Shown: positions 27,607 through 62,791 of the stretch, in pieces
How positions within the stretch are numbered: position 1 is the first letter of the stretch
Layout: every line of letters begins with the position of its first letter
NCBI GenBank assembly: GCA_947500295.1
Contig: CANMRM010000005.1
Coordinates: forward strand, 248,001-312,000
Direction: 5' to 3'
From: an uncultured Kordiimonas sp.
GTDB lineage: Bacteria; Pseudomonadota; Alphaproteobacteria; Sphingomonadales; Kordiimonadaceae
DNA: 64,000 bases
Made by a program: the position numbers and the translations under genes
The notes under the pieces: generated by a model
The model's database searches: none
Told to the model about the DNA's origin: nothing
What the model saw: the letters and a program-made list of their open reading frames with translations, nothing else

Positions 27607-29022
27607 ATGTCGGAAGGGGAGAATGAAGAAATGGGGGCAACCGGGGGGATTGCAGCCAGTGTCAGTCAGGATGTGGACTCGCCGTGGGCGCGCGTCTGCA
27701 GCAAATTCAAAAAGGAATTCGGGCAACAGGCCTATTCGACCTGGCTGGGGCAACTTGGGTACAATGGGCTGGACGGTGGCACGGTTGAGTTGACAGCGCC
27801 AACAAAATTTGTGCGGGACTGGATCCAGCGCAATTACGGTTCTCGTCTGATGGACTTTTTCCATGCCGAAGACAAACGCGTAAAAAGCCTGAGCATTCGC
27901 CTGGCTGCCAAAGGTGCTGTACCGGCTACGCCGAGCCAGCCTGTGGCGCGCGCTGCCGCGGCTGAAGCGCCGGCGGATGCAAACGGTGGTTTCGGCCAAC
28001 AGGCAGCGCTTGATCCGAAATACACGTTCGACAGCTTTGTTGTCGGCAAGTCAAACGAGCTTGCTTACGCAGCGGCAAAACGAATTGCCGAAAGTGATGA
28101 AGTCGCCTTCAATCCATTGTTTCTGCACGGCGGCGTGGGCCTCGGCAAAACCCACCTGATGCACGCCATCGCCTGGGAAGTGAAACGACGTGCCCCGGAG
28201 AAAAAAGTTGCCTATGTATCGGCAGAAAAATTCATGTTCGAGTTCATCTCGGCCATCCGATACAAAGACACTCACGCTTTCAAACAAAGATTTCGTGCTG
28301 CGGACCTGCTGATGGTGGACGACGTTCAGTTCATCGCCAACAAAGACAGCACCCAGGAAGAGTTCTTCCACACATTCAATGCTCTGATCGACAACCGCTG
28401 CCAGTTGGTGATTACGGCAGATCGCTCTCCCACCGACCTCGAAGGCATCGAAGAGCGTATTGTCTCAAGGCTGGGGTGGGGTCTGGTTGCGGACATTCAC
28501 CCAACCGACTATGAGCTCAGGCTCGGCATTCTGCAGTCCAAGGCAGAACAAGTGCCAGGCGTGGAGGTGCCGGTTGAAGTGCTGGAGTTCCTTGCCAAGC
28601 GCATCATCTCGAACGTGCGGGAACTTGAAGGGGCCCTCAACAGAGTGATGGCCTACGCAACCCTTGTTGGCCGCCCCATCACAATGGAAATGACCCGGGA
28701 CGTGCTGCAGGACCTCATTCGTGCCAATGACAGAAAGGTAACGATTGATGAAATCCAGCGCAGCGTTGCTGAATATTACAATTTGCGGCTCGCGGAGATG
28801 CTGTCGCAGCGGCGGTCGCGCATGATCGCACGCCCCCGTCAGGTCGCCATGTATCTCTCCAAGCAGTTGACGGCCCGCAGCCTGCCGGAAATCGGGCGCC
28901 GCTTCGGAGGTCGCGATCATACCACCGTCATGCACGCGGTGAGAAAGATCGAAGACCTGGTTAAATCGGACAGTCAGCTTGACGAGGATATCACCCGTTT
29001 GACCCGCCTTCTTGCCGGCTGA
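27607..29022 (+). CDS. dnaA: Chromosomal replication initiator DnaA
   Basis: A 471-residue AAA+ initiator that binds DnaA boxes and opens oriC. Domain I (about residues 20-90; WARVCSKFKKEFGQQAYSTWL) is followed by an Ala/Pro-rich linker. Domain III has Walker A GGVGLGKTHL and Walker B LLMVDDVQFI; domain IV ends with the DnaA-box helix GRRFGGRDHTTVMHAVRKI. The ATG at 27607 follows AAGGAGAATAAG; an ATG at 27631 (MGATGG) with its own GGGGAGAAT is an alternative. The terminator at 29116-29141 follows. Confidence 0.97.
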   Translation: MSEGENEEMGATGGIAASVSQDVDSPWARVCSKFKKEFGQQAYSTWLGQLGYNGLDGGTVELTAPTKFVRDWIQRNYGSRLMDFFHAEDKRVKSLSIRLAAKGAVPATPSQPVARAAAAEAPADANGGFGQQAALDPKYTFDSFVVGKSNELAYAAAKRIAESDEVAFNPLFLHGGVGLGKTHLMHAIAWEVKRRAPEKKVAYVSAEKFMFEFISAIRYKDTHAFKQRFRAADLLMVDDVQFIANKDSTQEEFFHTFNALIDNRCQLVITADRSPTDLEGIEERIVSRLGWGLVADIHPTDYELRLGILQSKAEQVPGVEVPVEVLEFLAKRIISNVRELEGALNRVMAYATLVGRPITMEMTRDVLQDLIRANDRKVTIDEIQRSVAEYYNLRLAEMLSQRRSRMIARPRQVAMYLSKQLTARSLPEIGRRFGGRDHTTVMHAVRKIEDLVKSDSQLDEDITRLTRLLAG

Positions 29023-29115
29023 CCCGGGGGCATCTGCCCCCTGCAGGCTGACATTTGAAAGCCCCGATTTCCTGCGTATGCGACTCGGCAGAAAACCAGT
29101 GATTCCAGCTTGAAA

Positions 29116-29141
29116 AAAAAGCGTCATTTTTGGCGCTTTTT
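29116..29141 (+). terminator. Intrinsic terminator of dnaA
   Basis: Left arm AAAAAGCGTCA (29116-29126), loop TTTT, right arm TGGCGCTTTTT (29131-29141), with one wobble pair. It lies 93 bases past the dnaA stop, so dnaN likely has its own promoter between here and 29310. Confidence 0.85.
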
Positions 29142-29309
29142 CGTTTGGTTTTACCCCCAAAACCGCTATTGTTGCAAAAGGCCTTGTATGGGGGTGCCGA
29201 TAGGCTGGTTTTTCACCTATTCCGGTGTGTCTCGGGGGAGACGAAGCCGGGCACTGCGGCGCTATCTGAAAGGCAGCCGATTAATGCAGTCAGACAAGAA
29301 GATTTTTTC

Positions 29310-30425
29310 ATGAAATTCACGATTGAGCGGAATTCCCTCCTGAAAACCCTGGGCCACGTGCAATCCGTCGTTGAACGACGGAACACGATTCCAATCCTGT
29401 CAAATGTCATGATCGAAGCGGATGGGGAAGGCGTCGCCATGACCGCCACCGATCTCGACATTTCGATCGTGGAAAAGACCGGAGCTGCTGTAGCGCAGCC
29501 CGGTGCAACAACAGTGCCCGCGCACACCCTGTTTGACATCGCGCGGAAGCTTCCGGACGGCGCCGAGGTTGAGTTGACACTCGAAGATGGCGATCGCCTC
29601 GTTGTAAAAGCCGGGCGTTCACGCTTTACGCTCGCCTGTCTCGACAAAGAAGACTTCCCCACCATGAGCGAAAGCGATCTGCCGCACCGGTTCGCGATCG
29701 CGGCGGAAGAACTCAAGCGTTTGATCGACAAAGCCAGGTTCGCGATCTCCACGGAAGAAACCCGTTACTATCTGAATGGTATTTATTTGCATGTAGCAAA
29801 CAGCGATGCGGGCGCCACACTGCGCGCTGTCGCAACAGACGGGCACCGGCTTGCGCAGGTCGAGCAGGAAGTGCCAGAGGGTGCGACCGGCATGCCGGGC
29901 ATCATTGTGCCGCGCAAAACCGTCGCCGAGGTCAGAAAACTGATCGACGAATATGAAGGGGACGTTGTTGTTGCCCTGTCAGATACGAAAATGCGTTTCA
30001 GCTTTGACAGCACAGTTGTCACATCCAAGCTGATTGACGGCACATTCCCTGACTACAGCCGGGTCATCCCGCAGGGTAACGACAAGATGCTGGAGATTGA
30101 CTGCCGTCTCTTTTCTCAGGCGGTGGACCGGGTTTCCACCATCAGTTCGGACAAAACACGGTCAGTAAAACTGTCGCTCGCGGAAGATACACTCAAGCTG
30201 TCAGTCAACAGCCCGGACAGTGGCACAGCCCGCGAGGAATTGGCTGCCGCCTACAGTTCGGACGAACTGGAGATTGGCTTCAACAGCCGCTACCTAATGG
30301 ACATACTGGCCCAGATCGAAGGCGACATGGTGCAGGTTATGCTTGCTGACCCGTCGGCGCCGACAGTGCTGAAAGACCTGATGGACGAAGGCGCGCTGTA
30401 TGTGCTGATGCCCATGCGCGTGTAG
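29310..30425 (+). CDS. dnaN: DNA polymerase III beta subunit (sliding clamp)
   Basis: A 371-residue protein that forms the ring-shaped processivity clamp. Three clamp domains of about 120 residues each are apparent; typical stretches are LGHVQSVVERRNTIPILSNV, AVATDGHRLAQVE, VIPQGNDKMLEID and the C-terminal LYVLMPMRV. The ATG at 29310 gives the standard N terminus; the open frame extends upstream through the dnaA terminator and is not used. recF follows after 114 bases. Confidence 0.97.
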   Translation: MKFTIERNSLLKTLGHVQSVVERRNTIPILSNVMIEADGEGVAMTATDLDISIVEKTGAAVAQPGATTVPAHTLFDIARKLPDGAEVELTLEDGDRLVVKAGRSRFTLACLDKEDFPTMSESDLPHRFAIAAEELKRLIDKARFAISTEETRYYLNGIYLHVANSDAGATLRAVATDGHRLAQVEQEVPEGATGMPGIIVPRKTVAEVRKLIDEYEGDVVVALSDTKMRFSFDSTVVTSKLIDGTFPDYSRVIPQGNDKMLEIDCRLFSQAVDRVSTISSDKTRSVKLSLAEDTLKLSVNSPDSGTAREELAAAYSSDELEIGFNSRYLMDILAQIEGDMVQVMLADPSAPTVLKDLMDEGALYVLMPMRV

Positions 30426-30539
30426 AGGGCTTTTGGACCGACGCTCACATACCCTAAACGCATTGGTGTCAGGCTTTGCCGCGCTGGACAGGGTGGGTCT
30501 ATCGGTTCTGCTCAACGCCAATCTAGAAAGCCCTGCCGG

Positions 30540-34254
<3,715 letters not shown>

Positions 34255-47529: not shown

Positions 47530-50500
47530 TTAGTTGATTTCGCGGTTGTCGCCGCGATAGATCTCAGGGTTGTCCCATGGGCGCTGGCCAAATGGTTTGG
47601 CCGCCGGCCATACTTCATCGAGGGTCTCGGCATCATAAAGGACACCACCCTGCATCACATGGCCAATATCCAGCGTATTGCGGATATCCTCAAGAGGGTT
47701 GGAGCGTAGCACCACCAAGTCAGCCAGCTTGCCCACTTCGAGTGTGCCGATGTCCTCGATCGCACCGAGGAAGTATGCGCCGTGCCGCGTTGCAACCTCT
47801 AGAGCCGCGTGCGCACCCATAGCGCTCGCAACCATCCAGGTTTCCCAATGCGAACCGATGCCATGCTGCTGCCCGTGGGAACCAATGGCGCCGTAGCCGC
47901 CTTCGGCAATGACATCCGCCATGCCCTGCGCAACCAACGGGAAGCTATAGTCCGTATCTGGCCGCTTGATCGGCCGACGGGTGTTGGGCACCAGTTGACG
48001 CCAAGGCAGCCATTTGCGCTGCTTTTCATCCTGCCAGACATTTGTCTCACCCCAGAAATATTCCTCATTCCATGCGCCGGGGCCACCCACCACAAATGTG
48101 GGGGAATAGACGGCTTTTGCCTGACCGAAAAACTTGGCCGCATCGCTGTAGAGCGGCATATAGCTCATCGGGTGCTCAAAACCGGTTTGACCGTCCATAA
48201 TCATGCCAAGATTGTACGCGAGATCGGACCCCTCGGACGTGACCATCAAGCCCTCCTTGCGGGCAATATCACTGACCCACTGACGCTGGTCGCGGCGCGG
48301 CTGCAGATACTGTTTCGCTGAAACAGCTCCCCATGATTTCAGGCGTCTGACGTTATCTTCCGCCACTTCATAGCTGGTGAGCAGGTTCTCGCGGGCGCCG
48401 TCGCGGTTATAAAGCGGACCACCAGACGAATAGGTGCGCGGCCCAACCACTTTGCCTGCATCAATCAGCTCTGCAGTCGGGAACACATTTTGCGCCGCAA
48501 CCGCATTATCAAGGGCCGTCGTAACACCGTAGGCTGTGTAAATCGCGGTTTCATAGCCACGCGCCGGAATGATACCTCGATAGTCGCGGAAATGGTGGGC
48601 GTGCATATCCACCATCCCCGGCATGATGGTGGACCCTGCAGCATCAATCACGCGGTCGGCATTACTGGTATCGCACGTGCCAAGACAGGAGATGCGGCTG
48701 CCTGTCACGACAATTGTCGAGCCCTCCAGTATCTCCTTGCCGCGCATGGTCAGAATACGGGCGTTGGTAAGCGCAACTGTTCCGGTTGGGATCCGCTTTT
48801 CCACCGTCAGGGAAATGTTGGATTCTTGTGTTTCGCCGCTTGCGACATCATACGTATAGTAGGTCGAGGCCGAGCCATATTCGAGCGTTCCATCACCGCG
48901 CCAATTCGGGAACAATCCACCTGTCCTGGAAAGTTGCTTAACCGGCAGGGCACCGTTGCCCGAGCCTTTGCTGACAAGGACCGGGTTGCCCCTCGATTGC
49001 CTGAACGGCAGAGGGGACAAATATACATTGTCTCCTTCGAGGAAAGCCACATGGCGTCCGTCCGGCGCGATCACCGCTTCATCTGCAAAATCAAAACGCG
49101 CATGAATACGCGGCGGGTCAATGGACGGCATGGCCGAAACAGACACGAGCTCTGAATAGGCTGGTGGGCCGCTACCATTTGCATGCTCGCCGCTATGCTG
49201 ATCGGAACTGTGCAGATCGTCCTCTTCAGCGCTTAATCCGGTGCCTGCACCTGGAGCACCCTGAAGGAAGAAAATCCGTCCATCCGGTCCCCAGGTCGGG
49301 CGCGGAAGCTGTGTTCGTCCACGTCCAAAATTACCACTGAAATCAACCCGCCCGACGGTGACCTCATCGCCGCCGCCCGCAGACATATGCACAATATCCC
49401 AGTAGGAATTGTGGGTCATCTCACGCCCACGCGCTGTTGCGTTGGAGCCTTTTGCAACCACGAGCGAATTACTGTCCGGGCTCCAGTCAGGGTGGATGTA
49501 CTCACCCGGTTCGCTGGTAATCTGTTTTGGTCTGCCACCCGAGGCGCGAACAGTCCAGACCTGCCCTCGCGTTATGTCATCCCAGGTTGTGAAGGCGATG
49601 GTACGCCCATCCGGGGACCATGCCGGCGAAAATTCGAAGGGCGCAAAGCTCTCCCGTGTCAGACGCTCGGGTGTGCCATTAGGCAGGTCCTGCACCCATA
49701 TCTTACCAACGGCCTGAAAGGCAAGTTTGCTGCCGTCCGGCGAAGCTGCCGTCCAGCGCAAAAACCTGGCTTTGAAGGGATCGTCCGTAATCCGGAAACC
49801 CTTATAGGCCTGCTCTGAAATTGTGCGTTCAACTTTGGCGGAAAACGGGATGGTCGACACCGCGCCTGACGCCACATCCACACGCCTGATCTTGCCACCC
49901 TGTGTTAAAATCACTGACTTGCCATCTGGCGCGAAACTATAACCCGGCAGCACGCGCAAGGTCTTCATGCCTTCGACCATATCCTGCGTTACCGGGTCCA
50001 TCAGAATGCGTTCTGTACCGGTTTCCAGGTCCCGCAGCCAAAGCGCTGTGCGCGGCCCAAATTTCAACCCTTTATATGAAATCGTACCGTCCGGGATACG
50101 GCGGATGAATGTCATCAATTTACCATCCGGCGAAATTTCAGGCGCTCCAGCACCGCCGCTGGAAAATCGTGATTGCTGTCGGTTGACACCATGACTGACG
50201 GCCTCAATATCGCCAGTTTCCAAATTCAGGCGACTAACCTGAATTTCACCTGCCAGCGAATTCCACTGGCCCCAGGTGGTGCCCGTACTGGTGCGCCTGT
50301 GGAAATAAAGCCACTGGCCGTCAGCGGTGGCTGTTGGCCAAGCTGCACCGACTTGTTCCCGGCCAACCAGCTCAATGCCTTTGCCGCCATCCTTGTGGAA
50401 CATCCAGATACCAGCGGCTGGCCGCGCACCGCGCTTGGGCAAGCCACGCTTGCGCACAAAAATATAGTCGCCGTCCGGACTCCATTCAGGCGTCAGGAAA

Positions 50501-50931
50501 CGCGCATTCAGATCCTTCACAATCTGGCGAGGGTTGCTGCCATCTGCGTCCATGACCCAGAGATTGTCCTGCCCTCCCCGATCCGAGATAAAGGCAATAT
50601 GGCTGCCGTCCGGAGAGATGGCTGGGTGATAATTGGTCGCTACACCGCTGTCTTGCGTCAAGCTGACAGCGTCACCGCCATTGATGGGCAGGCGGTAAAC
50701 GTGAGCGAGCAAGTCAAATACAAGCCAATTGCCATCCGGCGATACGTCGACAGACATGAAGGTGCCTTCGTCCGTGGTGAAAGAAATCTCCCGCACTTCG
50801 CCGCGTGCGAGTGTCGTGTCCCACTTGGCGTCGTCGCCTGTCTCATCATTTGCGTTGGAGACGATTGTCGCGGTTACCAGTGCGCCAAGCGCCAGCCCCG
50901 CCATACGGATGACCCGATAGAAACTCTGCAT
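47530..50931 (-). CDS. Giant secreted beta-propeller/amidohydrolase protein 1
   Basis: A 1133-residue protein. A signal peptide (RMAGLALGALVTATIVSNA) leads to a propeller region of PD40 repeats (ISPDGSHIAFISDRGGQDNLWVMD, WSPDGDYIFVRKRG, WSPDGRTIAFTTWD; residues about 60-700) and a C-terminal amidohydrolase domain. The metal motif is HAH in GMVDMHAHHFRDYRG, with further histidines in GFEHPMSYMPLYSD and SHGQQHGIGSHWE. The fold is shared by secreted peptidases and imidase-like enzymes; the substrate is unknown. ATG 50931 is chosen to give a normal signal peptide; ATG 50961 is in frame. It is 125 bases after the ABC exporter, with its own candidate promoter, and convergent with the antiporter. 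Confidence 0.82.
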   Translation of the reverse strand: MQSFYRVIRMAGLALGALVTATIVSNANDETGDDAKWDTTLARGEVREISFTTDEGTFMSVDVSPDGNWLVFDLLAHVYRLPINGGDAVSLTQDSGVATNYHPAISPDGSHIAFISDRGGQDNLWVMDADGSNPRQIVKDLNARFLTPEWSPDGDYIFVRKRGLPKRGARPAAGIWMFHKDGGKGIELVGREQVGAAWPTATADGQWLYFHRRTSTGTTWGQWNSLAGEIQVSRLNLETGDIEAVSHGVNRQQSRFSSGGAGAPEISPDGKLMTFIRRIPDGTISYKGLKFGPRTALWLRDLETGTERILMDPVTQDMVEGMKTLRVLPGYSFAPDGKSVILTQGGKIRRVDVASGAVSTIPFSAKVERTISEQAYKGFRITDDPFKARFLRWTAASPDGSKLAFQAVGKIWVQDLPNGTPERLTRESFAPFEFSPAWSPDGRTIAFTTWDDITRGQVWTVRASGGRPKQITSEPGEYIHPDWSPDSNSLVVAKGSNATARGREMTHNSYWDIVHMSAGGGDEVTVGRVDFSGNFGRGRTQLPRPTWGPDGRIFFLQGAPGAGTGLSAEEDDLHSSDQHSGEHANGSGPPAYSELVSVSAMPSIDPPRIHARFDFADEAVIAPDGRHVAFLEGDNVYLSPLPFRQSRGNPVLVSKGSGNGALPVKQLSRTGGLFPNWRGDGTLEYGSASTYYTYDVASGETQESNISLTVEKRIPTGTVALTNARILTMRGKEILEGSTIVVTGSRISCLGTCDTSNADRVIDAAGSTIMPGMVDMHAHHFRDYRGIIPARGYETAIYTAYGVTTALDNAVAAQNVFPTAELIDAGKVVGPRTYSSGGPLYNRDGARENLLTSYEVAEDNVRRLKSWGAVSAKQYLQPRRDQRQWVSDIARKEGLMVTSEGSDLAYNLGMIMDGQTGFEHPMSYMPLYSDAAKFFGQAKAVYSPTFVVGGPGAWNEEYFWGETNVWQDEKQRKWLPWRQLVPNTRRPIKRPDTDYSFPLVAQGMADVIAEGGYGAIGSHGQQHGIGSHWETWMVASAMGAHAALEVATRHGAYFLGAIEDIGTLEVGKLADLVVLRSNPLEDIRNTLDIGHVMQGGVLYDAETLDEVWPAAKPFGQRPWDNPEIYRGDNREIN

Positions 50932-51010
50932 GATAATGCCCCTGCCTGTGTGAAAACCCACGGGTGAAGCACCTATTCGTCAGCCTGACTTCCCCCTACG
51001 CCCGGGCACA

Positions 51011-51056: not shown

Positions 51057-53837
51057 TTAGGTCTTGCCTGCAGGATGAACCATCTTCGCAAACACGCCGC
51101 CCGATGTGGCGAGCTCATCAAAGCCACCGCTTTCAGCAATTTTGCCGTCCTTCAGGACAAAAATTTTGTCAGCCTGCTGAATGGTGGACAGACGGTGCGC
51201 AACAACAATACGGGTTACGGTCATGGCATCCAGCGCCTGAATCACGCGGGCCTGTGTCGGCTCGTCAAGGGCACTGGTCGCCTCATCGAGCATCAGCACC
51301 CGGGGCTTGGCCGCAATCGCACGAGCAAGCATCAACCGCTGTATCTGGCCACCCGAGAAATTGGATGTGCCCTGCGTAATCTGGGTTTGCATGCCCATAG
51401 GCATGGCACGAATGTCAGCGGCAATGCTCGCGGCCTCGGCCGCTGCCCACGCATCATCAATGCTGCATCCTGATGCGCCCCGAATATTGTCATAAAGGCT
51501 GCCGGGCATCGCCTGTCCAAGCTGCGTAACCGCAGAAACCTGCCGCCTGAGCGCACTGCTGAGAAGCATGCGACGGTCCTTGCCGTCAAAATGTACCGAG
51601 CCAAGTTCCGGCTCCAGCACGCCCAGCATCAACCTCAGCAGCGTAGACTTGCCGCTGCCAGAATCGCCGACAATCGCGACCGACTGACCGGGCATAACAG
51701 AAAGCGACACATCATCGAGAACCCAGAGTCCGTTTTCTTCATAGCGGAATGAAACCCCGTCCACGGAAACATGGCCTTTCAGCGGACCGGGGTCGCGCTT
51801 GTGCGCCTCTGAAACCGGCACCGTTTCCAAAAAAGGTTTCACCCGTTTTTTCTGGCCAATCAGCGGTGCAATCTGGCTGCCAAGATGGGCGATCGCCACG
51901 CTTGCTGACGTAAAGGTGCCGAGCGCTGCAATAAACGCCAGGTAAAGGCCGCTGTTGAGCGCACCATCTTTTGATACATCGGTGACAACCAGCAGGAAAA
52001 CAATAAGAATTGATGCCGCCTGAACCCCGCTCGAGAGGGATTGGAAACCGGTCTTGATCGCTCGCGAGCGCATCGACCGGGCACGGAGTTCACTAAAATT
52101 GTGAGCCCATTGGTTGAACGCCCAGCGCTCTGCTCCGGCAGCCTTGATCTTGTTGATTCCTGCCACCAGCTCAAGCGTCTGGTTAAAGGCACTGCCCCTA
52201 AAGCTTTCACCCTCGGCGATGGTGCGGCGCTGGAGGTATACTGTTAGAGCACTGGCGGCAAACAGCAAAAGTGAAAGCCCAAGCATCGCCAGCGCCATCA
52301 TCGGAAACAGAGTTGCCATAACAACCAGACTGGCAAGAAAATGCTGGCCACGAACAATCAGGGTATGCGCCAGTGATTGCACACTGGAGTGCATGCGCCC
52401 TGCTACCGACAACCGTTGCATCAAATCGCCGGTGCCAAACCGGCCAAAAAACTTTCCTGGAAAATGGAGCAGCCTGTGCCAGAGGGCAGACGTTGTCAGC
52501 AGCGCTGTTCGTCCCTGAATACGAAGGGCTGACAAGGCTGCAGCCCGATCGAGGAAAAAGGCAACGCCAGCAATGACGACAAGCGCGAGCACCAACTGAA
52601 CCAATTTGTCCGACAGGGAAGACGGTACTATGCGCGAAAAGGCAACCCCCATTCCGTATGGCAGCGCCATCGCAAGCATAGCGCTGCCAAGCCCCAGAAG
52701 GGTCATCGCAGTTGCATCCCGCCAGTTCGCGCGTGCACCAAAAATCAGAAAGTCTTTGAAGCTCAACTCCCGCTCTGGCAGCAACGGCGAAACCGTGTAA
52801 ATTTCCGCTGCAAGGCACGCCGCTTTTTCGGGGTCCAGAGAGGTTATACTCTCGGTTTCCGTATCGTAAATCCGTGTCCCTTTATTATCCGGCACCAGAA
52901 CAAAGGGCGTTTTATCTTCAAAGGCGAGCAGTGGCTCGCTGAGCGTCATCAGCTGGTGCATCGGCACGTTGACCGGTTGCGCGAGAAGGTCGGCACGACG
53001 GCAAACAGCAAATAATGACTTGTCTTTGTATTTTTCTGCCGTGCGGGGGAGAACAAAGCCTGCATGTTTTCCGAGCTCGGACAATGCCTTCAGCAATGGT
53101 GTGTCAAAACTCGCCTTGCCGCTGTTCTTGCCGAAAATGCGAGCAAAGTGTGCCAGTTCCTTCTGCAACACTGTATTTTCATAGGCGTCAATATCATGAT
53201 CGAGTGAAAGATGATCAGCGCCGTTTTTGGCTGCAAGGGACCCCAGGATGGTAAGCAAAACTGATGAGGCTTCTGTTGCCGCCGACGCGAGTTCTTCCGC
53301 GGGCAACTCACCGCTGCGGCGCACGGCAAACCGCGCGCCTTCCGGCAACATAATCTGTATACCGGGGGGCATGGAAAAGCTGTCACCTGCTGACAGTTGA
53401 TCCAGCGCTTCACCGGCAACCGACCATGCGAGACCCGAGGGGCAGTCCGGCAGAAGCGTGACCCAGTGAACGGCACCCCGGCTTTCCGCAACGGTGGGTG
53501 CATTGACAGTTAGGGAAGCGGCGGGCGCAAAAACATACCCCGGGTCTGATGGTGCCTCATGATGATATTCGACAATCTCGTGTGCAACCGTTGCCAGCCA
53601 TTGTTCCACTGGCTCCACAGCAGGCACCGTATCTTCCAGGCCTGCCCCGCCGCGCGGCCTGAAAACCAGCTCGACGTCGCCGTTGCCAATACTATCCATT
53701 GAGGGCAGAACAGAGTTTTCCGACATCCTGCCGATGAAAACAGGTGCAAAGCTTGCCGACCGGCTGCTCAGAAACACATCGCAATGCCCGGCAATCACGC
53801 GGTGCCAGCAAGGCTTCTGTGTGGCGCCCCCAGTCAC
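51057..53837 (-). CDS. NHLM-type peptidase-less ABC exporter (second ATPase)
   Basis: A 926-residue half-transporter. GTG 53837 is the start because AGGAG precedes it inside the end of the previous gene, one base after that stop. The N-terminal ~390 residues are the variable domain of NHLM ABC2 proteins, ending in a degenerate C39-like stretch without the catalytic cysteine (TPFVLVPDNKGTRIYD). The membrane domain (about 400-660) has five or six helices. The ATPase has Walker A GDSGSGKST (724-732), signature FSGGQ (827), Walker B RVLMLDEA (846-853) and H-loop histidine at about 881. It matches the second exporter of NHLM bacteriocin systems (TIGR03797 from memory). No leader peptidase of its own; it probably dimerises with or relays to the first exporter. 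Confidence 0.88.
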   Translation of the reverse strand: MTGGATQKPCWHRVIAGHCDVFLSSRSASFAPVFIGRMSENSVLPSMDSIGNGDVELVFRPRGGAGLEDTVPAVEPVEQWLATVAHEIVEYHHEAPSDPGYVFAPAASLTVNAPTVAESRGAVHWVTLLPDCPSGLAWSVAGEALDQLSAGDSFSMPPGIQIMLPEGARFAVRRSGELPAEELASAATEASSVLLTILGSLAAKNGADHLSLDHDIDAYENTVLQKELAHFARIFGKNSGKASFDTPLLKALSELGKHAGFVLPRTAEKYKDKSLFAVCRRADLLAQPVNVPMHQLMTLSEPLLAFEDKTPFVLVPDNKGTRIYDTETESITSLDPEKAACLAAEIYTVSPLLPERELSFKDFLIFGARANWRDATAMTLLGLGSAMLAMALPYGMGVAFSRIVPSSLSDKLVQLVLALVVIAGVAFFLDRAAALSALRIQGRTALLTTSALWHRLLHFPGKFFGRFGTGDLMQRLSVAGRMHSSVQSLAHTLIVRGQHFLASLVVMATLFPMMALAMLGLSLLLFAASALTVYLQRRTIAEGESFRGSAFNQTLELVAGINKIKAAGAERWAFNQWAHNFSELRARSMRSRAIKTGFQSLSSGVQAASILIVFLLVVTDVSKDGALNSGLYLAFIAALGTFTSASVAIAHLGSQIAPLIGQKKRVKPFLETVPVSEAHKRDPGPLKGHVSVDGVSFRYEENGLWVLDDVSLSVMPGQSVAIVGDSGSGKSTLLRLMLGVLEPELGSVHFDGKDRRMLLSSALRRQVSAVTQLGQAMPGSLYDNIRGASGCSIDDAWAAAEAASIAADIRAMPMGMQTQITQGTSNFSGGQIQRLMLARAIAAKPRVLMLDEATSALDEPTQARVIQALDAMTVTRIVVAHRLSTIQQADKIFVLKDGKIAESGGFDELATSGGVFAKMVHPAGKT

Positions 53838-53838
53838 G

Positions 53839-56022
53839 TTATGCACTCCTGAGCCGGGCAAATGGCCCCGCCCGCGCCGACAATTCAGCATAGGTGCCTG
53901 TTTCAACGATGCTGCCGCTCTCCAACACGAGAATGCGGTCAAAATTTCCAAGCGCAGACAGACGGTGGCTGACAAAAATAACTGTGACCCCAAGAGAAAG
54001 CAGTTCCTCTACAACCGCTTTTTCCGTAGGTGCATCCAAAGCACTAGTTGCTTCGTCCAGCACCAGGATAGTGGGCTCCAGAACGAGCGAGCGCGCAAGC
54101 TCTATACGTTGCCTCTCTCCGCCGCTGAAATTCTGGCCGTCCGCTTTAACGGCAGCATCAAATCCGCCCGGCCGGCGCATAATCACATCATGAATGCAGG
54201 CCGCGCGCGCAGCCTTGGTCAGCATTTCCACCGGCAGCGAGCGATCGCTGAGCGACAGGTTTGTGGCAATACTAGCCTCAAACAATCGCACCTCCTGGTC
54301 AACATACGCGAAGGAGGCATGCAGCGCCGTGTGATCCAGCTCTGAGCGCAACTTGCCATCATAAAGCAGGCTGCCCGACGTTGGCGCATGGAGCCCGGCA
54401 ATTATCTTTGCAAGGGTAGATTTGCCACTGCCCGAAGCGCCGACAATAGCAATGCATTCCCCCGCCGCAACATTAATGGAAACGTTCTTGATGACTGGTT
54501 CCGAGAAGGCGGAATAGCGAAAGCACAGATCCTGAATTTCAATTGCACCCGATAGTTTGTGCACGGTTTTGTCCGTACCGGCAGTTTCACGCAGGACCAT
54601 CTGGTCCCGGGGTTCGTGCAGAACGTCGTCGAGCCTTTCGAGGTTACCCTTCAGTTGCTGCAGCGCGCTGCCCAGGCCCAAAAGCTCGTTTACCGGCGCG
54701 GAAAACAGGGACATAAGCATCTGGAAAGCGATCAGCATGCCCACAGTGATCACGCCGTCCATCACATCGAAACCACCCACCAGAATGAGGGCTATCAGAG
54801 CCAGCGAAGACAGGAGAGTTGGCAATGTCTCCAGAACCGCCTGCTGCCTTCCGAGAACTTGTTGCTGATTGACGATTTCACGTTGATGGAATGTTAGGGT
54901 CTGGAGAAAACTCTCAACACCGCCACCAGCAATCAAACTTTCAACAGACTGCAGACCGCGACTGCCCTGTGTAAAAAACTGCGCTTCTTCAACAAGCAAC
55001 CTGCGGTGACCATCCGCGAGTTTGTTTTGCAGAAACCGTAGCGTCAGCAAATTAAGCCCGGCAAAAAATGCGGCAAGCGCCGTCAAACCCAAATTATATT
55101 GAGCCATAGCAATGGCGTAAACGAACATGGTGAGCAGACCAAGCGCCGCAAGCGCAACACGGTTGGTGAGTGTGCCTGCAATATGATCGTTGAGCGAAAC
55201 ACGGCTCGCCACTTCAGAGGCATTCCTGTGAGCAAAATAGCTGACCGGCAAGTGCAGGACGTGCCAAAAAAAACCGGTCGCGCCAACAAGTGCGATTTTG
55301 GCGTCAAGTTTCATCAATTGCCGGTCCCGCATCCAGGTCAACAAAGCCTGGACAACACCAACGGTGGCAATGGAGCCAAGCATTGGCCAATACCAACCCG
55401 GATGGCTCTCCAGAATGAAATAGTCTGCCAACACACGGTTGAAAGCAGGCAGGATCAAGCCTGGCACCGTTAACAACAGGCCAAGGAAAACGGTTACACC
55501 AAGAGCAACCCGAGTGCCTGACAAGCGTTTTTCGATGGCTGCAAGCAAGGTCGGGCGGGCACCGCCGGGTTCAAAACCATCGCCTGGCTCCAGCTTGAGA
55601 GCCACACCCGTATAGTGCTTTTCAAATTCTTCACGCGGCAATTTGCGGGGCCCGGTCGCCGGGTCGTTGAGCCAGGCCGTCGTTTCATCAAGGTGTTCAA
55701 GGACCAGAAAATGATTGAAGTCCCAAAACAATATGAGCGGAAACCCCATGGATGGAAGGTCGGCCGCTGATGCCTTGACACCTTTTGCGGCAAGCCCGTG
55801 CGCGCGGGCCGCTGTCAGAATTTCTTTGGCTTTGACACCGTCGCGGGACACACCACAGGATACACGCCAATATTCCAACGGTTTTGTAAGGCCATGATAC
55901 TCCGCAACAATTGCCAGTGCCGCAGCGCCGCACTCGATGGCTTCCATCTGGAGGACCGTGGGTGTTTTCGCTCGGTGCCTGTCACCACCGATCAATTGGC
56001 CAATGTGCCCAACAAAGCTCAC
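53839..56022 (-). CDS. NHLM-type C39 peptidase ABC exporter
   Basis: A 727-residue peptidase-containing half-transporter that cuts double-glycine leaders and exports the cargo. The C39 domain has the catalytic cysteine C31 (AIECGAAAL), histidine H104 (NHFLVLE) and aspartate D120 (WLNDPATG). The membrane domain spans about 165-440. The ATPase has Walker A GASGSGKST (528-536), signature FSGGE (632), Walker B ILVLDEA (652-658) and H-loop H686. All key residues are intact. It matches the first exporter of NHLM systems (TIGR03796 from memory). GTG 56022 is one base after the HlyD stop, so it is translationally linked. Confidence 0.92.
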   Translation of the reverse strand: MSFVGHIGQLIGGDRHRAKTPTVLQMEAIECGAAALAIVAEYHGLTKPLEYWRVSCGVSRDGVKAKEILTAARAHGLAAKGVKASAADLPSMGFPLILFWDFNHFLVLEHLDETTAWLNDPATGPRKLPREEFEKHYTGVALKLEPGDGFEPGGARPTLLAAIEKRLSGTRVALGVTVFLGLLLTVPGLILPAFNRVLADYFILESHPGWYWPMLGSIATVGVVQALLTWMRDRQLMKLDAKIALVGATGFFWHVLHLPVSYFAHRNASEVASRVSLNDHIAGTLTNRVALAALGLLTMFVYAIAMAQYNLGLTALAAFFAGLNLLTLRFLQNKLADGHRRLLVEEAQFFTQGSRGLQSVESLIAGGGVESFLQTLTFHQREIVNQQQVLGRQQAVLETLPTLLSSLALIALILVGGFDVMDGVITVGMLIAFQMLMSLFSAPVNELLGLGSALQQLKGNLERLDDVLHEPRDQMVLRETAGTDKTVHKLSGAIEIQDLCFRYSAFSEPVIKNVSINVAAGECIAIVGASGSGKSTLAKIIAGLHAPTSGSLLYDGKLRSELDHTALHASFAYVDQEVRLFEASIATNLSLSDRSLPVEMLTKAARAACIHDVIMRRPGGFDAAVKADGQNFSGGERQRIELARSLVLEPTILVLDEATSALDAPTEKAVVEELLSLGVTVIFVSHRLSALGNFDRILVLESGSIVETGTYAELSARAGPFARLRSA

Positions 56023-56023
56023 G

Positions 56024-57313
56024 TCAGGTGGCCTTTGGCGCAGGAAAAATCTTTTCCATAAACGGCAGCATCAACGAAATAAGCCGCACATTCCGTACAG
56101 TTACATCGGCCACGAACTCACTACCATGACCCACCAGAAAGGGCGGCCCGTTCGAGGAAGCCCAGCTGAAACCACTTGGCGTGTCGCCGGCCGGAAGATC
56201 CACACGAACCTGAAAAGCAACACCACCGTTCAACAGGGATGACACAAGCGCCCTGTTGCGTGTGTAGCGCAGCATTTCCTGATCACTCACCGGAAGGCTT
56301 GAGACCGAAGCAACCGTTCCTCGAATAAATCCAAATTCCTGTCGCTTCACCGTTGTTGGGTAGACTTTGGCCGTCATGTTCTTCTGAACTTCCGAGCCTT
56401 TTTCTGCCGGAACGAACAAATAACCCACAAGGCGACTATTGCTCGGATCCACCAACGCGATCCGTTCAGCCGTTGGCAGAATTGTCATCAGGGTCATGTC
56501 GGTTTGAATGACATCCCCTTCCGAGACCCGGATCTCCACCACACGCCCCGCAACCGGGCTGCGAATGACATTCTGGCGCGCCAGTTGATCTGAGAGCTGT
56601 TTCAGCTTCCGTTCCGCGGCAGCAACCTGAAGGTCGAGATCAAGAATATTTTGTGCATCCTCAATCTCCTGAAGCTGCGCCTGCTCGTCCAATCCGGACA
56701 AAGCAGCTTGAGTGGCTGTAATCGCACTTTGGGTTGATGAAACCTGGCTTTCAGTATTGATGACCACGGTGCGTGCAATAACACCCTGAGACAGCAACCG
56801 CTGTCGCTCCGTGAGTTGATTCTGGTAGGTTTGTAGAAGCTCTTGCTGTTCCTTCAGGGTCTGCGTCAACCGCGTGCGCCTCTCGGCTGAGAAGGCGTCC
56901 CGTGCCTGTTTTCTCGTTACATTGAAAGCCTGAATTTGCGAACGCTCATCTCGCACACCATCAAGTGCAGCCTGCGCCAGCGCAACATCGTCGGCAAGCG
57001 ATGCCTGATCAAGCCGGACGACCACATCACCCTCTGCAACGGTGTCGCCGACCTGGACATCGACATCCAGCACCTGTCCGCCCGCATAACTTGCGATGCT
57101 GGAAACGCCGCCCCGGTCGAGGATAACGCCTTTGCCTTCAACACTAATAGGGACAGTGGTAAAAATGGAGGCGACAAGCGCGCCCAGTACCAGAAGACCC
57201 AAAACGGCAACCGCATTCGCGAAACCGGGTTTCACCAGTTGAATACTGCCTGCGAGCTGGTCTGGCGTGGCGGCGTGCGCCAGCGCCTTTTTTTGGAAAA
57301 GTGTTTCAGCCAT
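56024..57313 (-). CDS. NHLM-type HlyD-family secretion adaptor
   Basis: A 429-residue periplasmic adaptor that joins the ABC exporter to the outer membrane. A single N-terminal membrane helix (AVAVLGLLVLGALVASIF, about residues 34-51) is followed by the lipoyl half-motif (VEGKGVILDRGGVSSIASYAGGQVLDVDVQVGD), a long coiled coil (about 110-240) and the second lipoyl half (NVIRSPVAGRVVEIRVSEGDVI). It matches NHLM secretion proteins (TIGR03794 from memory). It is 42 bases after the 200-residue unknown protein gene. No outer-membrane TolC-like factor is in the window. Confidence 0.9.
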   Translation of the reverse strand: MAETLFQKKALAHAATPDQLAGSIQLVKPGFANAVAVLGLLVLGALVASIFTTVPISVEGKGVILDRGGVSSIASYAGGQVLDVDVQVGDTVAEGDVVVRLDQASLADDVALAQAALDGVRDERSQIQAFNVTRKQARDAFSAERRTRLTQTLKEQQELLQTYQNQLTERQRLLSQGVIARTVVINTESQVSSTQSAITATQAALSGLDEQAQLQEIEDAQNILDLDLQVAAAERKLKQLSDQLARQNVIRSPVAGRVVEIRVSEGDVIQTDMTLMTILPTAERIALVDPSNSRLVGYLFVPAEKGSEVQKNMTAKVYPTTVKRQEFGFIRGTVASVSSLPVSDQEMLRYTRNRALVSSLLNGGVAFQVRVDLPAGDTPSGFSWASSNGPPFLVGHGSEFVADVTVRNVRLISLMLPFMEKIFPAPKAT

Positions 57314-57355: not shown

Positions 57356-57958
57356 TTAATCCCTGAGTGCGGCCGTAGCATCCAGAGCCTGATAAAAGGC
57401 TGCTTCAAGGGCCGCGCCCCTATCCATCGCCGCATAAAAAGCAGCGCGAGCACGCTCCATTTTTTCTGCATCTCCAGCTTTTGATGTGTCAAGCTTTTGG
57501 GAAATGATGCGCTCAAAGGCTGCTTTCGGGTCTTCACCATTATCCGCCGCGGACATGATTGACCAGGCGGCATGAGCCCTTTGAGCCAGTGCAATTGCCA
57601 GATGCGTGGCACCGGCTGTATTGGCACCGCGCTCCACGGCTCTGAAGAAAATCAGCTCGGCCTGAGACGCGATATGTTTCGCTTCCTCTTCGCTCCAGCC
57701 TTCGGCTGGCGCGTTGTCCGCTATGATTTTCCGAAGGGCCTGACGCACCCGAAGAATGGATTCGCGCAGTGCTTCCAGGTCTGTCTGCGAGCCGTCACCA
57801 TCAGAAGGTTGCGGCAACCGGGCGTCGGCCGCCGGTTCGCCAAACCAGGCCTTTTCATGAGGAAACCCGCTCAGGAGAGCGCCATCACCCGGCAAAAGCG
57901 CGCCACCATAACAAGATGGGTCAAGCCGATCGGTTTCGATATTTACTGTCTCTGGCAT
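57356..57958 (-). CDS. Unknown 200-residue protein in the exporter operon
   Basis: A 200-residue protein without signal peptide, membrane helix or cysteine pairs (one cysteine, near residue 17). The N-terminal 55 residues are polar and Pro/Gly rich; the rest is helical and alanine-rich (EALRESILRVRQALRKIIAD, HLAIALAQRAHAAWSIMSAA, AAFYAAMDRGAALEAAFYQAL). No family is recognised. It lies 12 bases after the repeat-protein gene and 42 before the HlyD gene, so it is part of the operon and may be a chaperone, an immunity protein or a regulator of export. The alanine-rich helices suggest a protein-binding bundle. Confidence 0.72.
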   Translation of the reverse strand: MPETVNIETDRLDPSCYGGALLPGDGALLSGFPHEKAWFGEPAADARLPQPSDGDGSQTDLEALRESILRVRQALRKIIADNAPAEGWSEEEAKHIASQAELIFFRAVERGANTAGATHLAIALAQRAHAAWSIMSAADNGEDPKAAFERIISQKLDTSKAGDAEKMERARAAFYAAMDRGAALEAAFYQALDATAALRD

Positions 57959-57970
57959 GATTTATCCCCC

Positions 57971-59314
57971 TCAGAAAATCGATTTGAATGCATGAGAAAT
58001 TGAGTGCCCCACACTGCTGGCGGCGTGGGATATCGAGTGCCCCACATTGCTGGCTTCATGGGAAATCGCGTGGCCGACGTTGCTGGCCTCGTGGGAAATA
58101 TCATGCCCCACAGTGCTGGCTTCGTGCGATATTGCATGACCGACATTACTCGCTTCATGGGAAATGGCGTGGCCAACGTTGCTGGCTTCGTGGGAAATCG
58201 CGCTACCTGCTGCATCAAAACCATGCTCGATTGAGTGGCCTGCGGATTCAAAACCATGTTCAATGGAATGCCCTGCAGACTCAAAGCCATGCGCGACGGA
58301 CTCGCCCGCATGCTCTAGCCCATGTGCCATTTCACCAACGTTGATTGTTGTGCTCAGGTTGAAACTGGCGCCAAACAATTCAATGTCCGCACTGCCACCG
58401 ATACCCAGCGTAAGTTCGCCGTCATTGTATGTGGCTTCACCGGATATACCGGCACCAAGAGCACCCGGCGAGTGGATGGAACCACCTGCCGTTACATTGT
58501 TGTCGTCGCTGCCTACCGTGCCGCTTGCGCCGACTTCAGCATATTCGCCTTCTTCGGCACTTACGTTTTCGGCAACGCCGTGGTCGTCCGCTTCAACGGA
58601 CGCGGTCGCCGACGCGCCCTCAGATACACCGGCGTGGACTTCACCACTGGCCGACGCGCCGCCACCAATATTACCGCTGACGCCTGCGCCTGCTTCTGCT
58701 GTCACGGAGGCACCCGCTTCCGCGTCAGCTTTCACGCCTTCATTGCTAACGGACGCACTGGCGTCGGCGTGGGCTTCTTCGGTCGTCTGAACCCCCACAG
58801 TGCCGGTTACGCCGCCGCCAAGGCTGCCGCTGTCGCTGACGCCCTGGCTCGCAGATACGGAAACACCTGCACTGCCTTCAACGTCTACACCGCCCGGCCC
58901 GATTGTTGCCGTGCCTGATGCATCGGCAGACGCAGTTTCGTTGGTTTCTGCGGTCACACCGTGGCCGAGGTTAGCGTTCGTGCTGTCACTTACAGAGGCG
59001 CTGGCTTCGCCTGTGGCACTGACGCCATCAGACGAGACGCTGACGCTGCTGTCCGTTCCAGCATCGGTTGTGACATGATTGCCTTGCGATTCGTCCGTAT
59101 CAGCATTGACATGACCCACCTGATCACCCGAAACGATATTCTCGGCCAGCGGATTGTCTTCCTCTTCTTCACCGTCATCGCCTTCACCGGCAGCAGCGTC
59201 ATCTTCGCTGGCTTTGGCTTCTGTATGTTGATCCGCGCCCACACCACCGGTGATGCCTTCGAGTGCATCATCATCCAGTTCCTGTGGGCCACCTTCCATA
59301 TCGTCCATGCTCAT
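57971..59314 (-). CDS. Large double-glycine-leader protein with histidine-rich 11-residue repeats, proposed cargo of the exporter
   Basis: A 447-residue acidic protein without cysteine. Residues 1-24 form a double-glycine leader: ELDDDALEGITGG (12-24) has the acidic/hydrophobic pattern and GG of C39 peptidase leaders, so cleavage after G24 is expected. Residues 30-60 are strongly acidic. Residues about 75-310 are rich in Ser, Ala, Gly, Thr and Val with alternating polarity (SVSVSSDGVSATGEASASV), suggesting an extended beta-rich repeat domain. Residues 331-440 are ten 11-residue units (HEASNVGHAIS type), then HAFKSIF. The ATG at 59314 follows GGGAGAT. It is first in the operon, just where a precursor gene is expected. 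It is far longer than known bacteriocin precursors. No homologue is recognised. Confidence 0.8.
   Translation of the reverse strand: MSMDDMEGGPQELDDDALEGITGGVGADQHTEAKASEDDAAAGEGDDGEEEEDNPLAENIVSGDQVGHVNADTDESQGNHVTTDAGTDSSVSVSSDGVSATGEASASVSDSTNANLGHGVTAETNETASADASGTATIGPGGVDVEGSAGVSVSASQGVSDSGSLGGGVTGTVGVQTTEEAHADASASVSNEGVKADAEAGASVTAEAGAGVSGNIGGGASASGEVHAGVSEGASATASVEADDHGVAENVSAEEGEYAEVGASGTVGSDDNNVTAGGSIHSPGALGAGISGEATYNDGELTLGIGGSADIELFGASFNLSTTINVGEMAHGLEHAGESVAHGFESAGHSIEHGFESAGHSIEHGFDAAGSAISHEASNVGHAISHEASNVGHAISHEASTVGHDISHEASNVGHAISHEASNVGHSISHAASSVGHSISHAFKSIF
57995..58324 (-). repeat. Ten 33-bp coding repeats (11-residue histidine-rich units)
   Basis: Codons for residues 331-440 of the cargo protein form ten in-register 33-bp units. 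Two early copies (HGFESAGHSIE) are identical in protein, and five later units share HEAS(N/T)VGH. The DNA copies differ at third positions, so the repeat is maintained at protein level and is not a fresh slippage expansion. Confidence 0.9.
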
Positions 59315-59513: not shown

Positions 59514-62500
59514 TCAGTTTTCCTGAAAATACATCGCTGGTGTCGAGGCCGGGTTCGGGAAGACGCGAGACGCGTCCTCGCCCTTGTAGAGCACACCGTT
59601 TTGTATCACCCAGGTGATCGCCCTTGCGTTCCGGATATCATCAAGCGGGTTTTCTGAAAGCACCAGCAGATCGGCATATTTTCCCACTTCCAGTGAACCA
59701 ATTTCGTCACCAAAACCATGGTATCTGGCACCATTAATGGTCGAAATTTCAATGATCTGCTCCGGGGTAAACCCGCCTTGCTGGAAGAGCTCCATCTCCC
59801 AGTGGGCATCGAGGCCGCTCATCTGACCATGCGCTCCAAGCTGCAGGGAAATGCCTGCTTCATACAGTGGCTTCAGCGCAGCTGCCATCCTGGGTGCATA
59901 GTGCTCATCATCCCAGTAGAAAGTGGGGCGACGAACCCGCAAAAGCTCATCCCGCGTCTGGAACTTCAACAGTTTTGGATTTTCCCAGACCCGCTCATTG
60001 TGGTGGAAATACTGCTCGCCGGCAGGACCATTGTAGACAACGATCAGCGTCGGCGTGATGCCCACATCTGTTGCTGCCATAAACCGCACAACATCGCTGT
60101 AGAGTGGTGTCATGCCCATAGAGTGCTCGAGCCCGGTGATACCATCGACAACCTGCGTCAGGTTCATCTGCAGGTTGGCAGCGGTTTCGGCGACATCATG
60201 GAGGCCAAGCTCACGAGAGGCTGCGACCGTCGCGTGGCGTGCGCGCCGAGAGAACTGTGTATAGTCTTTCACCGCTTCTGCACCAAAAGCCTGATTATAG
60301 CTCAGGGCCTGCCGGGCTTCTTCCAGGCTATCGATCGGTCGCATCAGCCCCTTGCGGTATTTGGCACCAAAAATCGGCGTGCCGACCGTGAACAACCGCG
60401 GCCCATAGGTCAGGCCGGCCTCAAGCCGGTCTCTGATCCAGGCGTCCTTTTCCGCGGTACCGTACACTTCATAAAGCGTGGTAACGCCGTGCGCAAGTGG
60501 CGACAAGAGCCCCGATACAGACTCTTCAATGGTGTGAAGATAGGACTGCACATTGCCGCCATAGTGACCATGTGCGTCGATTATGCCGGGCATGATCGTC
60601 TGGCCGCTTGCATCAAACACCTGTGCACCGCGCGGAATATTGATGTTCTGGCCAATGGCACTGATACGATTGTTTTCGATCAGAATGCTGGCGTTTTCAA
60701 GCACGCGCCGACCTTCATCCATTGTGATGATCCGGGCGTTGGTGATGGCGATAGTACTGTCCGGTACCGCAACATCGTATGAAACCGCGATGTTTGTGAC
60801 AGAGGCGTCACCGCCCTCTTCAGCCAGCACGTCCTCAAGTGATTTCCTGTAAAAATCCGTGCCTCGGGTCCAATAAAGGCTTGCACTGTCATCGGACCAC
60901 CCGAGATACACACCTTCCGCCGTATCAATACGCTTGGTGAAGCCCGTCTTGTTTTCACCGCTGACCTTGATGGTTTTTCCAACAAATTCAAACGGAGTGA
61001 CAAAAGCCCGCTGGTATTCGCGGAAGGCAACCCACTTCATATCGGGAGAGATAACGGCACGCGTGGACCATGGGAAATGATAGAGCTCCTGCTCGCCTTC
61101 CCCGTCAATGCCTATGCTTTTCAGTTTCAGGCCATCATCGGTAAACTCTGAGAAATAGATTTTTCGGCTATCAGCGGAAAACATCAGCGGAGAAGCACGC
61201 CGGATTTCAGGCGTGTTGCCGTTGGACCATTGCGCCCCCACGTCAGTCACCTTCCATGTGGTACCGTTTTCGTCGCGTACCATGAGATCGAAACTGGTCT
61301 GGTTTTCAATCCTGCCGCCATTTTTCAGGCTGCCGGGGCCTCGCAAAAATGCAAGCTTTGAGCCGTCATGCGACAGGGCAAGCGCTCCATACTGGGTTGG
61401 CAGGTCCGTCAATGTCTCGGCGGCACCCCCCGCGAGCGGACGACGTTTGATTGCACCAAAGCCTATGTCGCTCCAGGTCGCATAATAAAGCATGCCCGAA
61501 GGCGCGTGATAGAGCGGGTTGGTTTCCAGTTCGGCACTGTTGGTGATGTTACGCGAAGTCCCGCTCGAATGGAGATACAGGTCCCCCAGAGCTTCCGACA
61601 GAATACCTCCGGCGGCAGGTGCCGCAAATCGCTGTATACGGGTTTGCTGGCGACCTGACTTAATGGGGTTGGTCGTGCGAACGGTGGCATTAACCTCCCG
61701 GGACACTGCGGCTCTGAACGGAATATCGCTGACGCGTCCTGTGTCCATGTTCACCCGTTTGAGCCCACCCTTGTCGCTCAACACAATATCTGTGTTGTTG
61801 GCCCAGCTCATGCCGGCACTTGAGCCATATTGGCTGAGGTTCTCCATCTGGTCCCGGTCTAGACCTTCAAGCACCAACCTGTCCTGATTGGTCTCAAGGT
61901 CGCGGACATAAAGAGCACGCACCAGATCTTCCCGGCCCATGTAGGCCAGACGCTTGCCATCAGGTGACAGTTGCGGATTGAATGCCCCTCCGGCCCGCTG
62001 GATCAAAATCTCGGTTTTGCCGGTTTTTTTGTTGAAACGATAGATGCGGGCGCCGTCACCGGGCAGGCGGCCATTGATGTGCTCGTAGTAGAAATACCCC
62101 CGCTCCGCATCGTCAACAAAATGGTTGGCAAATCGAAATACGGCACTCTCGACAAGTTCCTGTTTCTTGCCAAAACGATTATATATTTCGCCGTGCAGGG
62201 TGAGCTCTTTCGGGAAACGAACCGCCAATATATGCCGACCGTCCGCCGACCAGTTGCCCCGCAGAACCGGATCCTCTGATTTGGTCAGGTTTTCAAGCTC
62301 TCCGCTTTCGCGGTTCATAATCCAGATATTGTCGACACCGTTGCGATCTGAGGTGAACGCGATTTCGCCGCCATCCGGGCTGTAGCGTGGCATCTGGTTC
62401 CAGGAGCGTCCCTCGGTCAGCCGGCGGGCGTTGCCCCCCTCAATCGGCATTTCATAAATATGGCCAAGCAGGTCAAAGATGACGGTCTGCCCATCGGGTG

Positions 62501-62684
62501 ACACATCGACACTCATCCAGGTGCCTTCCTGAGTATCAAAATCCACCTGAAGGGTTGGTGTACCCTCCGGGTTGGCCGTGTCGATTGACCACTCTTCCTT
62601 TTTGTTGTCTGCGTTCTCCTGTGCACTGACACTGCCAGCTGCAATAAACACAAGTGCCGTAAGCACTGCCCAAACCTGTGCCAT
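59514..62684 (-). CDS. Giant secreted beta-propeller/amidohydrolase protein 2
   Basis: A 1056-residue relative of the protein at 47530-50931. ATG 62684 follows GGGGAGGGTTATC. The signal peptide (VWAVLTALVFIAAGSVSA) is followed by PD40 propeller repeats (YSPDGGEIAFTSDRNGVDNIWIM, LSPDGKRLAYMGREDL, ISPDMKWVAFREYQ) and an amidohydrolase domain with HGH in GIIDAHGHYGG, GLEHSMGMTPLYSDVVRF and LGAHGQMSGLDAHWE. The two proteins share layout and active-site wording but differ clearly in sequence, so they are old paralogues. The enzyme likely cleaves an amide or cyclic amide outside the cytoplasm. It is 199 bases upstream of the cargo gene. Confidence 0.82.
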   Translation of the reverse strand: MAQVWAVLTALVFIAAGSVSAQENADNKKEEWSIDTANPEGTPTLQVDFDTQEGTWMSVDVSPDGQTVIFDLLGHIYEMPIEGGNARRLTEGRSWNQMPRYSPDGGEIAFTSDRNGVDNIWIMNRESGELENLTKSEDPVLRGNWSADGRHILAVRFPKELTLHGEIYNRFGKKQELVESAVFRFANHFVDDAERGYFYYEHINGRLPGDGARIYRFNKKTGKTEILIQRAGGAFNPQLSPDGKRLAYMGREDLVRALYVRDLETNQDRLVLEGLDRDQMENLSQYGSSAGMSWANNTDIVLSDKGGLKRVNMDTGRVSDIPFRAAVSREVNATVRTTNPIKSGRQQTRIQRFAAPAAGGILSEALGDLYLHSSGTSRNITNSAELETNPLYHAPSGMLYYATWSDIGFGAIKRRPLAGGAAETLTDLPTQYGALALSHDGSKLAFLRGPGSLKNGGRIENQTSFDLMVRDENGTTWKVTDVGAQWSNGNTPEIRRASPLMFSADSRKIYFSEFTDDGLKLKSIGIDGEGEQELYHFPWSTRAVISPDMKWVAFREYQRAFVTPFEFVGKTIKVSGENKTGFTKRIDTAEGVYLGWSDDSASLYWTRGTDFYRKSLEDVLAEEGGDASVTNIAVSYDVAVPDSTIAITNARIITMDEGRRVLENASILIENNRISAIGQNINIPRGAQVFDASGQTIMPGIIDAHGHYGGNVQSYLHTIEESVSGLLSPLAHGVTTLYEVYGTAEKDAWIRDRLEAGLTYGPRLFTVGTPIFGAKYRKGLMRPIDSLEEARQALSYNQAFGAEAVKDYTQFSRRARHATVAASRELGLHDVAETAANLQMNLTQVVDGITGLEHSMGMTPLYSDVVRFMAATDVGITPTLIVVYNGPAGEQYFHHNERVWENPKLLKFQTRDELLRVRRPTFYWDDEHYAPRMAAALKPLYEAGISLQLGAHGQMSGLDAHWEMELFQQGGFTPEQIIEISTINGARYHGFGDEIGSLEVGKYADLLVLSENPLDDIRNARAITWVIQNGVLYKGEDASRVFPNPASTPAMYFQEN

Positions 62685-62791
62685 GATAACCCTCCCCATT
62701 TATAGACCGGGATCAGGATACCGCCTTCAATGACCAGACTGGAGTCTATTTTTAGATTAGTGAGACAAACCCGTGTATTACCGAGAGAAAA

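Follow-up and report, generated by a model that had tools for sequence, protein, structure and literature searches.

The question raised by this locus is what a small protein of no recognised family does inside a protein export operon. The DNA that we analyzed, called the window below, is a stretch of 64,000 nucleotides from an uncultured Kordiimonas sp. (assembly GCA_947500295.1, contig CANMRM010000005.1, positions 248,001 to 312,000). The gene in question, whose product we call the helper, lies at 57356-57958 on the minus strand. A sequence-only reading of the window had described the product as an unrecognised protein locked between the cargo and the adaptor genes, with a role specific to export as a chaperone, an immunity factor, or a modifying enzyme of a new type. 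The gene itself is real: it is an ORF of 200 codons, the plus strand across the same interval contains 2 stops, and the selection acting on it is clear, as described below.

The genes of the operon are arranged on the minus strand in the order cargo, helper, HlyD, ABC1, and ABC2. The cargo gene (57971-59314) encodes a protein of 447 amino acids, of which residues 1-24 (59243-59314) form an acidic leader that ends in ELDDDALEGITGG, where cleavage is predicted. That is, an acidic leader ending in GG and a C39 peptidase are encoded in the same operon, which is the pattern of a double-glycine cargo. The helper gene begins 12 bases behind the cargo gene. A ribosome-site-like stretch on the minus strand, GAGGGGG (AGGGGG at 57966-57971), overlaps the cargo stop codon and, as read from the sequence, is placed at ribosome-site distance upstream of the helper ATG. 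After a further 42 bases comes the gene of the HlyD-type adaptor (56024-57313), followed by ABC1 (53839-56022), which carries the C39 peptidase domain (Pfam Peptidase_C39, E 4e-31), and ABC2, whose true start is probably inside the ORF at 51057-53993. The operon is flanked on either side by one of two paralogous propeller-amidohydrolase proteins (47530-50961 and 59514-62699, both on the minus strand), which are 29% identical. Elsewhere in the window, at 27607-34254 on the plus strand, the starts of the ORFs resemble what we take to be the dnaA, dnaN, recF, gyrB run found near a replication origin.

Against the NHLM models, the HlyD protein scored 254.4 bits (TIGR03794, cut-off 156.2), ABC1 819.2 (TIGR03796, cut-off 853.3), and ABC2 587.7 (TIGR03797, cut-off 709.4). 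Since HlyD is above its cut-off and the two ABC proteins are below theirs, with NHLM still the best family for both, we regard the operon as NHLM-like and diverged. With the NHLM exporter cassette for NHLP/Nif11 cargos (Haft et al. 2010, PMC2887384), the window operon shares the HlyD protein, the C39-ABC protein, and the second ABC protein, and differs from it in the low scores of the ABC proteins, in a 447-residue cargo on which no NHLP or Nif11-type leader was matched in NCBIfam at E <= 1, in the lack of a modifying enzyme beside the cargo, and in the extra gene of the 200-residue helper.

The helper contains 43 Ala among its 200 residues and has a pI of 4.85. The maximum hydropathy over 19 residues is 1.01, meaning that it has neither a membrane helix nor a hydrophobic signal sequence, just as the sequence-only reading had stated. 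The description of the protein as unrecognised also held in the family libraries. No match was obtained at E <= 1 in Pfam (hence none to the HlyC family, to TPR, or to any immunity family) or in PHROGs, none was obtained in PADLOC, and neither Pfam (E <= 1) nor NCBIfam gave a match to a TPR or LcrH/SycD model. The sole match in NCBIfam was ClpP at E 0.036, with 13.6 bits against a cut-off of 228, and the helper piece from a second genome of the genus (G014) had no match there at E <= 0.1. As this E value was the best in any family library and the second piece had no match, we rejected a kinship with ClpP as chance. Weak ClpP-type matches recurred in the genome searches; when the ORFs were read at 20 such loci, 10 were ClpP-like by motif and the rest were unrelated or looked non-coding. 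Thus no homologue with a housekeeping role, which had been named beforehand as the finding that would speak against an export-specific role, was found at these loci. As judged from sequence matching, the helper family is new to Pfam, NCBIfam, PHROGs, and PADLOC.

An AlphaFold2 model of the helper, built from a two-row alignment, had a mean pLDDT of 67.7. In this model, residues 1-56 are disordered (pLDDT <50) and residues 58-200 form helical hairpins, with helices at 58-86, 90-109, 114-139, 144-155, 161-179, and 184-196. The pLDDT of the helical part ranged from 69 to 94 in ten-residue blocks, with a mean of about 81, and an alanine-rich, helical C-terminal half is what had been expected from the sequence. 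An internal repeat in this part is weak, its score being reached by 9 of 200 shuffles of the window protein and by 1 of 200 shuffles of the most distant relative described below. A Foldseek search of solved structures with the model gave nothing at E <= 0.001 (best E 0.14), a sequence search of solved structures gave chance-level matches only, and no VIA match exceeded a Z of 6.7, a value that in helical models may arise from a common arrangement alone. We read the Foldseek and VIA matches, to sigma-factor helices and designed repeats, as generic helical resemblance; for a predicted model of this kind, the missing structural match does not establish a new fold.

Relatives of the helper were searched for in 59 related genomes, 29 genomes of the family, 396 of the order, 385 of the class, and 299 of the phylum (by profile), and in 9 of a second order named below, these samples being overlapping. 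Over all of them, credible matches were obtained in three genomes only. Among the 59 relatives, two genomes matched, namely the source genome itself and G014, in which the helper adjoins a related cargo on one side and HlyD on the other, as in the window. The reading frame of this second helper is interrupted close to residue 128 in window-protein numbering, possibly through an assembly fault, since the G014 draft consists of about 150 contigs and splits HlyD, too, across two of them. Among the 385 genomes of the class, the third match (E 4e-8) was in a metagenome-assembled genome (MAG) of the alphaproteobacterial order Sneathiellales (G759, record JALXAG010000092.1). The MAG helper has 156 residues, lacks the N-terminal part, has a pI of 4.56 and no membrane segment, and is 30% identical to the window helper over 136 columns (BLASTP, E 2e-10). 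A profile search for remote homologues had been proposed in the sequence-only reading. On genome contigs, the window protein alone matched nothing, and the two-row profile matched one sequence, the same MAG, in a search whose pattern step can miss distant relatives. No match was obtained among plasmids by tblastn with either the window or the MAG helper, and no helper match was obtained among viral contigs.

In order to clarify the selection on the helper, we compared it with its G014 counterpart in two pieces. The pS values were 0.76 and 0.82, that is, saturated, and the pN values were 0.35 and 0.27. As pN stays at this level while pS is saturated, the helper is a real protein under constraint and not a chance ORF. 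Over all genes and pieces compared, pS was 0.75-0.87, and since synonymous differences are saturated, we give no selection ratios. The pN values of the other genes were 0.25 and 0.16 for the two HlyD pieces, 0.26 for ABC1, and 0.18 for the cargo; by this measure, the helper diverges faster than its neighbours. Residues 61-270 of the cargo (58505-59134, minus strand), a Gly/Ser/Ala-rich stretch, are 94-96% identical to G014 despite the saturated synonymous sites, so this middle part appears to be under unusually strong constraint. The identity at the cargo end (residues 331-447) is 45%.

We then asked with which gene the helper is associated. The MAG helper is encoded 43 bases downstream of a 382-residue GG-leader cargo, which is preceded by ABC2. 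The order in the MAG is therefore the end of ABC1, ABC2, cargo, and helper, and HlyD and the start of ABC1 are on a separate contig, which we infer to adjoin the first. Thus the placement between cargo and adaptor holds for the window and for G014, and does not hold in the MAG, where the helper is behind the cargo and not beside HlyD. In all three loci, over two different gene orders, the helper is directly downstream of a related cargo. We therefore think that its partner is the cargo and not the adaptor.

The distribution of the two genes points the same way. Of 19 genomes of the genus, two have the cargo, and the helper, which was searched in 29 genomes of the family, is in the same two; of the 9 genomes of the MAG's order, one genome has both. 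At 20 other NHLM loci from 16 alphaproteobacterial genomes (L088-L108 minus L102, that is, all loci over the cut-off in the class sample except our own and that of the MAG, some of them ending at contig edges), the helper profile found nothing, phmmer found no cargo, and no GG-leader ORF was prominent by 11-residue periodicity. The proposed export-specific role thus gains support in the form of a tie to one cargo type. The expectation that the helper always co-occurs with the long GG-leader protein agrees with three loci of three, which are few cases. Cargos without a helper may have been missed, because phmmer with the window cargo does not recover the MAG cargo. A class-wide cargo search of 372 genomes that found the source genome only is weak evidence from too insensitive a method. 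The kinship of the window and MAG cargos is indicated by a local score of 353, against 178 for the best of 100 shuffles, and also by their leaders and 11-residue repeats; both proteins are of low complexity. In a tree of ABC2 the three loci form one group (91/88), and in a tree of HlyD they do not (2 changes); with very long branches, these trees do not tell whether the cargo-helper pair was inherited once or transferred. Two of the other NHLM loci have features of their own. At L106 (1839-2501, plus strand), in another alphaproteobacterium, a 220-residue GG-leader protein, a fairly long cargo without a helper, is encoded directly upstream of HlyD. At L101 (3856-13342), the gene order is altered, with HlyD last, and the locus adjoins a second ABC/HlyD pair.

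The cargo contains no Arg, Cys, or Trp and 3 Lys, and has a charge of about -70. Its C-terminal part, residues 333-447 (57974-58318, minus strand), consists of 11-residue repeats; the identity at a lag of 11 is 0.70 in the window, 0.44 in G759, and 0.46 in G014. Treating this end as a helix with 11 residues per three turns gave hydrophobic moments of 0.40, 0.35, and 0.37 for the three cargos, compared to maxima of 0.17, 0.18, and 0.15 in 500 shuffles each. In all three cargos the histidines are grouped on one side of the helix (R 0.95, 0.65, and 0.96), opposite the hydrophobic face. In a low-confidence model of the window cargo (mean pLDDT 42.5), strands occur from residue 79 to 325, and a single helix spans 333-446, with a pLDDT of 63-75 in its final six blocks.

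From these results, our leading proposal, which we hold tentatively, is that the helper acts as a dedicated cytosolic chaperone that would bind the cargo encoded just upstream. The helper is small, consists of helical hairpins in the model, is made immediately after the cargo, and lacks an export route of its own, and is in these respects well placed to cover the cargo helix. Before export, the 115-residue amphipathic helix of the cargo could attach to the inner membrane or self-associate while still in the cytosol. The helper would bind by its helical hairpins to the histidine-striped C-terminal helix, shield it from both, and keep the cargo in a state fit for export by the C39-ABC1/ABC2/HlyD exporter, which would also cut the double-glycine leader. 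The histidine stripe may make the helix responsive to pH. The proposal is favored by the adjacency in all three loci, the absence of the helper from the 20 other NHLM loci, the amphipathic target helix, and the all-helical, soluble-looking, acidic nature of the helper. Against it, the loci number three only, and in one of them, from a draft genome, the reading frame of the helper is interrupted; no solved structure is a clear match to the model; the internal repeat is weakly significant; and the other NHLM loci manage without such a protein. In addition, outside its C-terminal helix the cargo is very hydrophilic and presents no obvious need for a chaperone, and charge does not favor the binding, since both proteins are acidic.

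The closest functional parallel appears to be that of the type III class II chaperones, which are all-helical proteins that act in the cytosol without ATP, bind partly unfolded membrane-active substrates, and cover their translocators in a comparable way (PMC3443056). The helper resembles SycD, IpgC, and PcrH of that source in being a small cytosolic protein of all-helical hairpins with a membrane-active substrate, properties that for the helper come from the model and our interpretation. It differs from them in lacking a TPR or LcrH/SycD match and in the secretion machine; as to a TPR fold, the model offers helical hairpins with no clear counterpart among solved structures. Our best reading by analogy is that the helper would work like these chaperones without belonging to their families by sequence. 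It is possible, though we consider it doubtful, that the operon represents the same principle independently reached in a type I-like system, that is, a cargo-specific chaperone encoded in the operon of a double-glycine C39-ABC exporter and covering a pH-responsive, histidine-striped, membrane-active helix. A chaperone for an exported cargo is also known from SecB, which keeps the type I cargo HasA export-competent in the cytosol (PMC8277102). In contrast to the helper, SecB is a general chaperone that is not encoded with its cargo, and the two do not match in sequence. In the titles and abstract openings of the literature on NHLM/GG-leader systems and chaperones, we found no operon-encoded chaperone for such an exporter, which is not proof of absence.

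Among the roles offered earlier, a chaperone fits best and immunity is possible. If the cargo were bacteriocin-like and membrane-active, the helper might protect the producer by binding the cargo or its target. The location of its gene immediately downstream of the cargo gene at each of the three loci, the naming of NHLM exporters for bacteriocin export, and the amphipathic, histidine-rich cargo end agree with this. A protein without a signal sequence or membrane helix, however, would not encounter a cargo that acts outside, except where the target is accessible from the cytosol; moreover, the cargo is not known to be toxic, and no immunity family was matched in Pfam. We consider this role unlikely. 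The same grade applies to a docking or gating adaptor that would deliver the cargo to ABC1/ABC2, or open these two proteins, and would leave the cargo helix unchaperoned. In G014 as in the window, the helper adjoins HlyD and carries a conserved stretch, SGFPHE[KR].WFG[ED]P, in its disordered N-terminus, which may serve to dock the helper to the exporter also if it is a chaperone. The MAG helper, in contrast, is not beside HlyD and lacks that stretch, and no helper is present at the 20 other NHLM loci.

It is improbable that the helper is an unrelated passenger or regulator that is in the operon by chance; the loci are few, but the gene is under selection and has stayed beside the cargo in two gene arrangements, with an identity of about 30%. 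Quite improbable, too, is a second component that is exported with the cargo or active alongside it outside. The helper is linked to the cargo in the same operon, but it has no signal sequence, and the GG at its residues 18-19 is not kept, the position reading GY in G014 and being absent from the MAG helper.

HlyC-type acyltransferases are small soluble proteins encoded beside RTX toxin genes, and in classical type I operons a modifying gene stands beside the cargo. The helper resembles HlyC in being small, soluble, and cargo-adjacent, and other NHLM clusters encode modifying enzymes; yet a cargo-modifying enzyme active before export, whether of a new type or in HlyC's place, fits least among the offered roles, is less likely than immunity or docking, and is very improbable, given that no enzyme family was matched in Pfam or NCBIfam, that the model is all-helical without a known enzyme fold, and that the positions identical across the helper relatives are dominated by Ala, Gly, and hydrophobic residues and do not form a catalytic-type set.

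Taken together, the helper family is new to the libraries searched, the operon is a variant of NHLM-type operons, and the mechanism of a cargo-specific chaperone is plausible, with few examples. C39-ABC exporters are usually pictured as requiring the exporter and the cargo only. A partner that travels with one cargo type would reveal how these exporters cope with proteins that are long and membrane-active rather than with short peptides, and the helper and the 115-residue helix form a defined pair open to direct testing. The cargo is of interest in its own right, with its histidine-striped helix of 11-residue repeats behind a strongly conserved middle.
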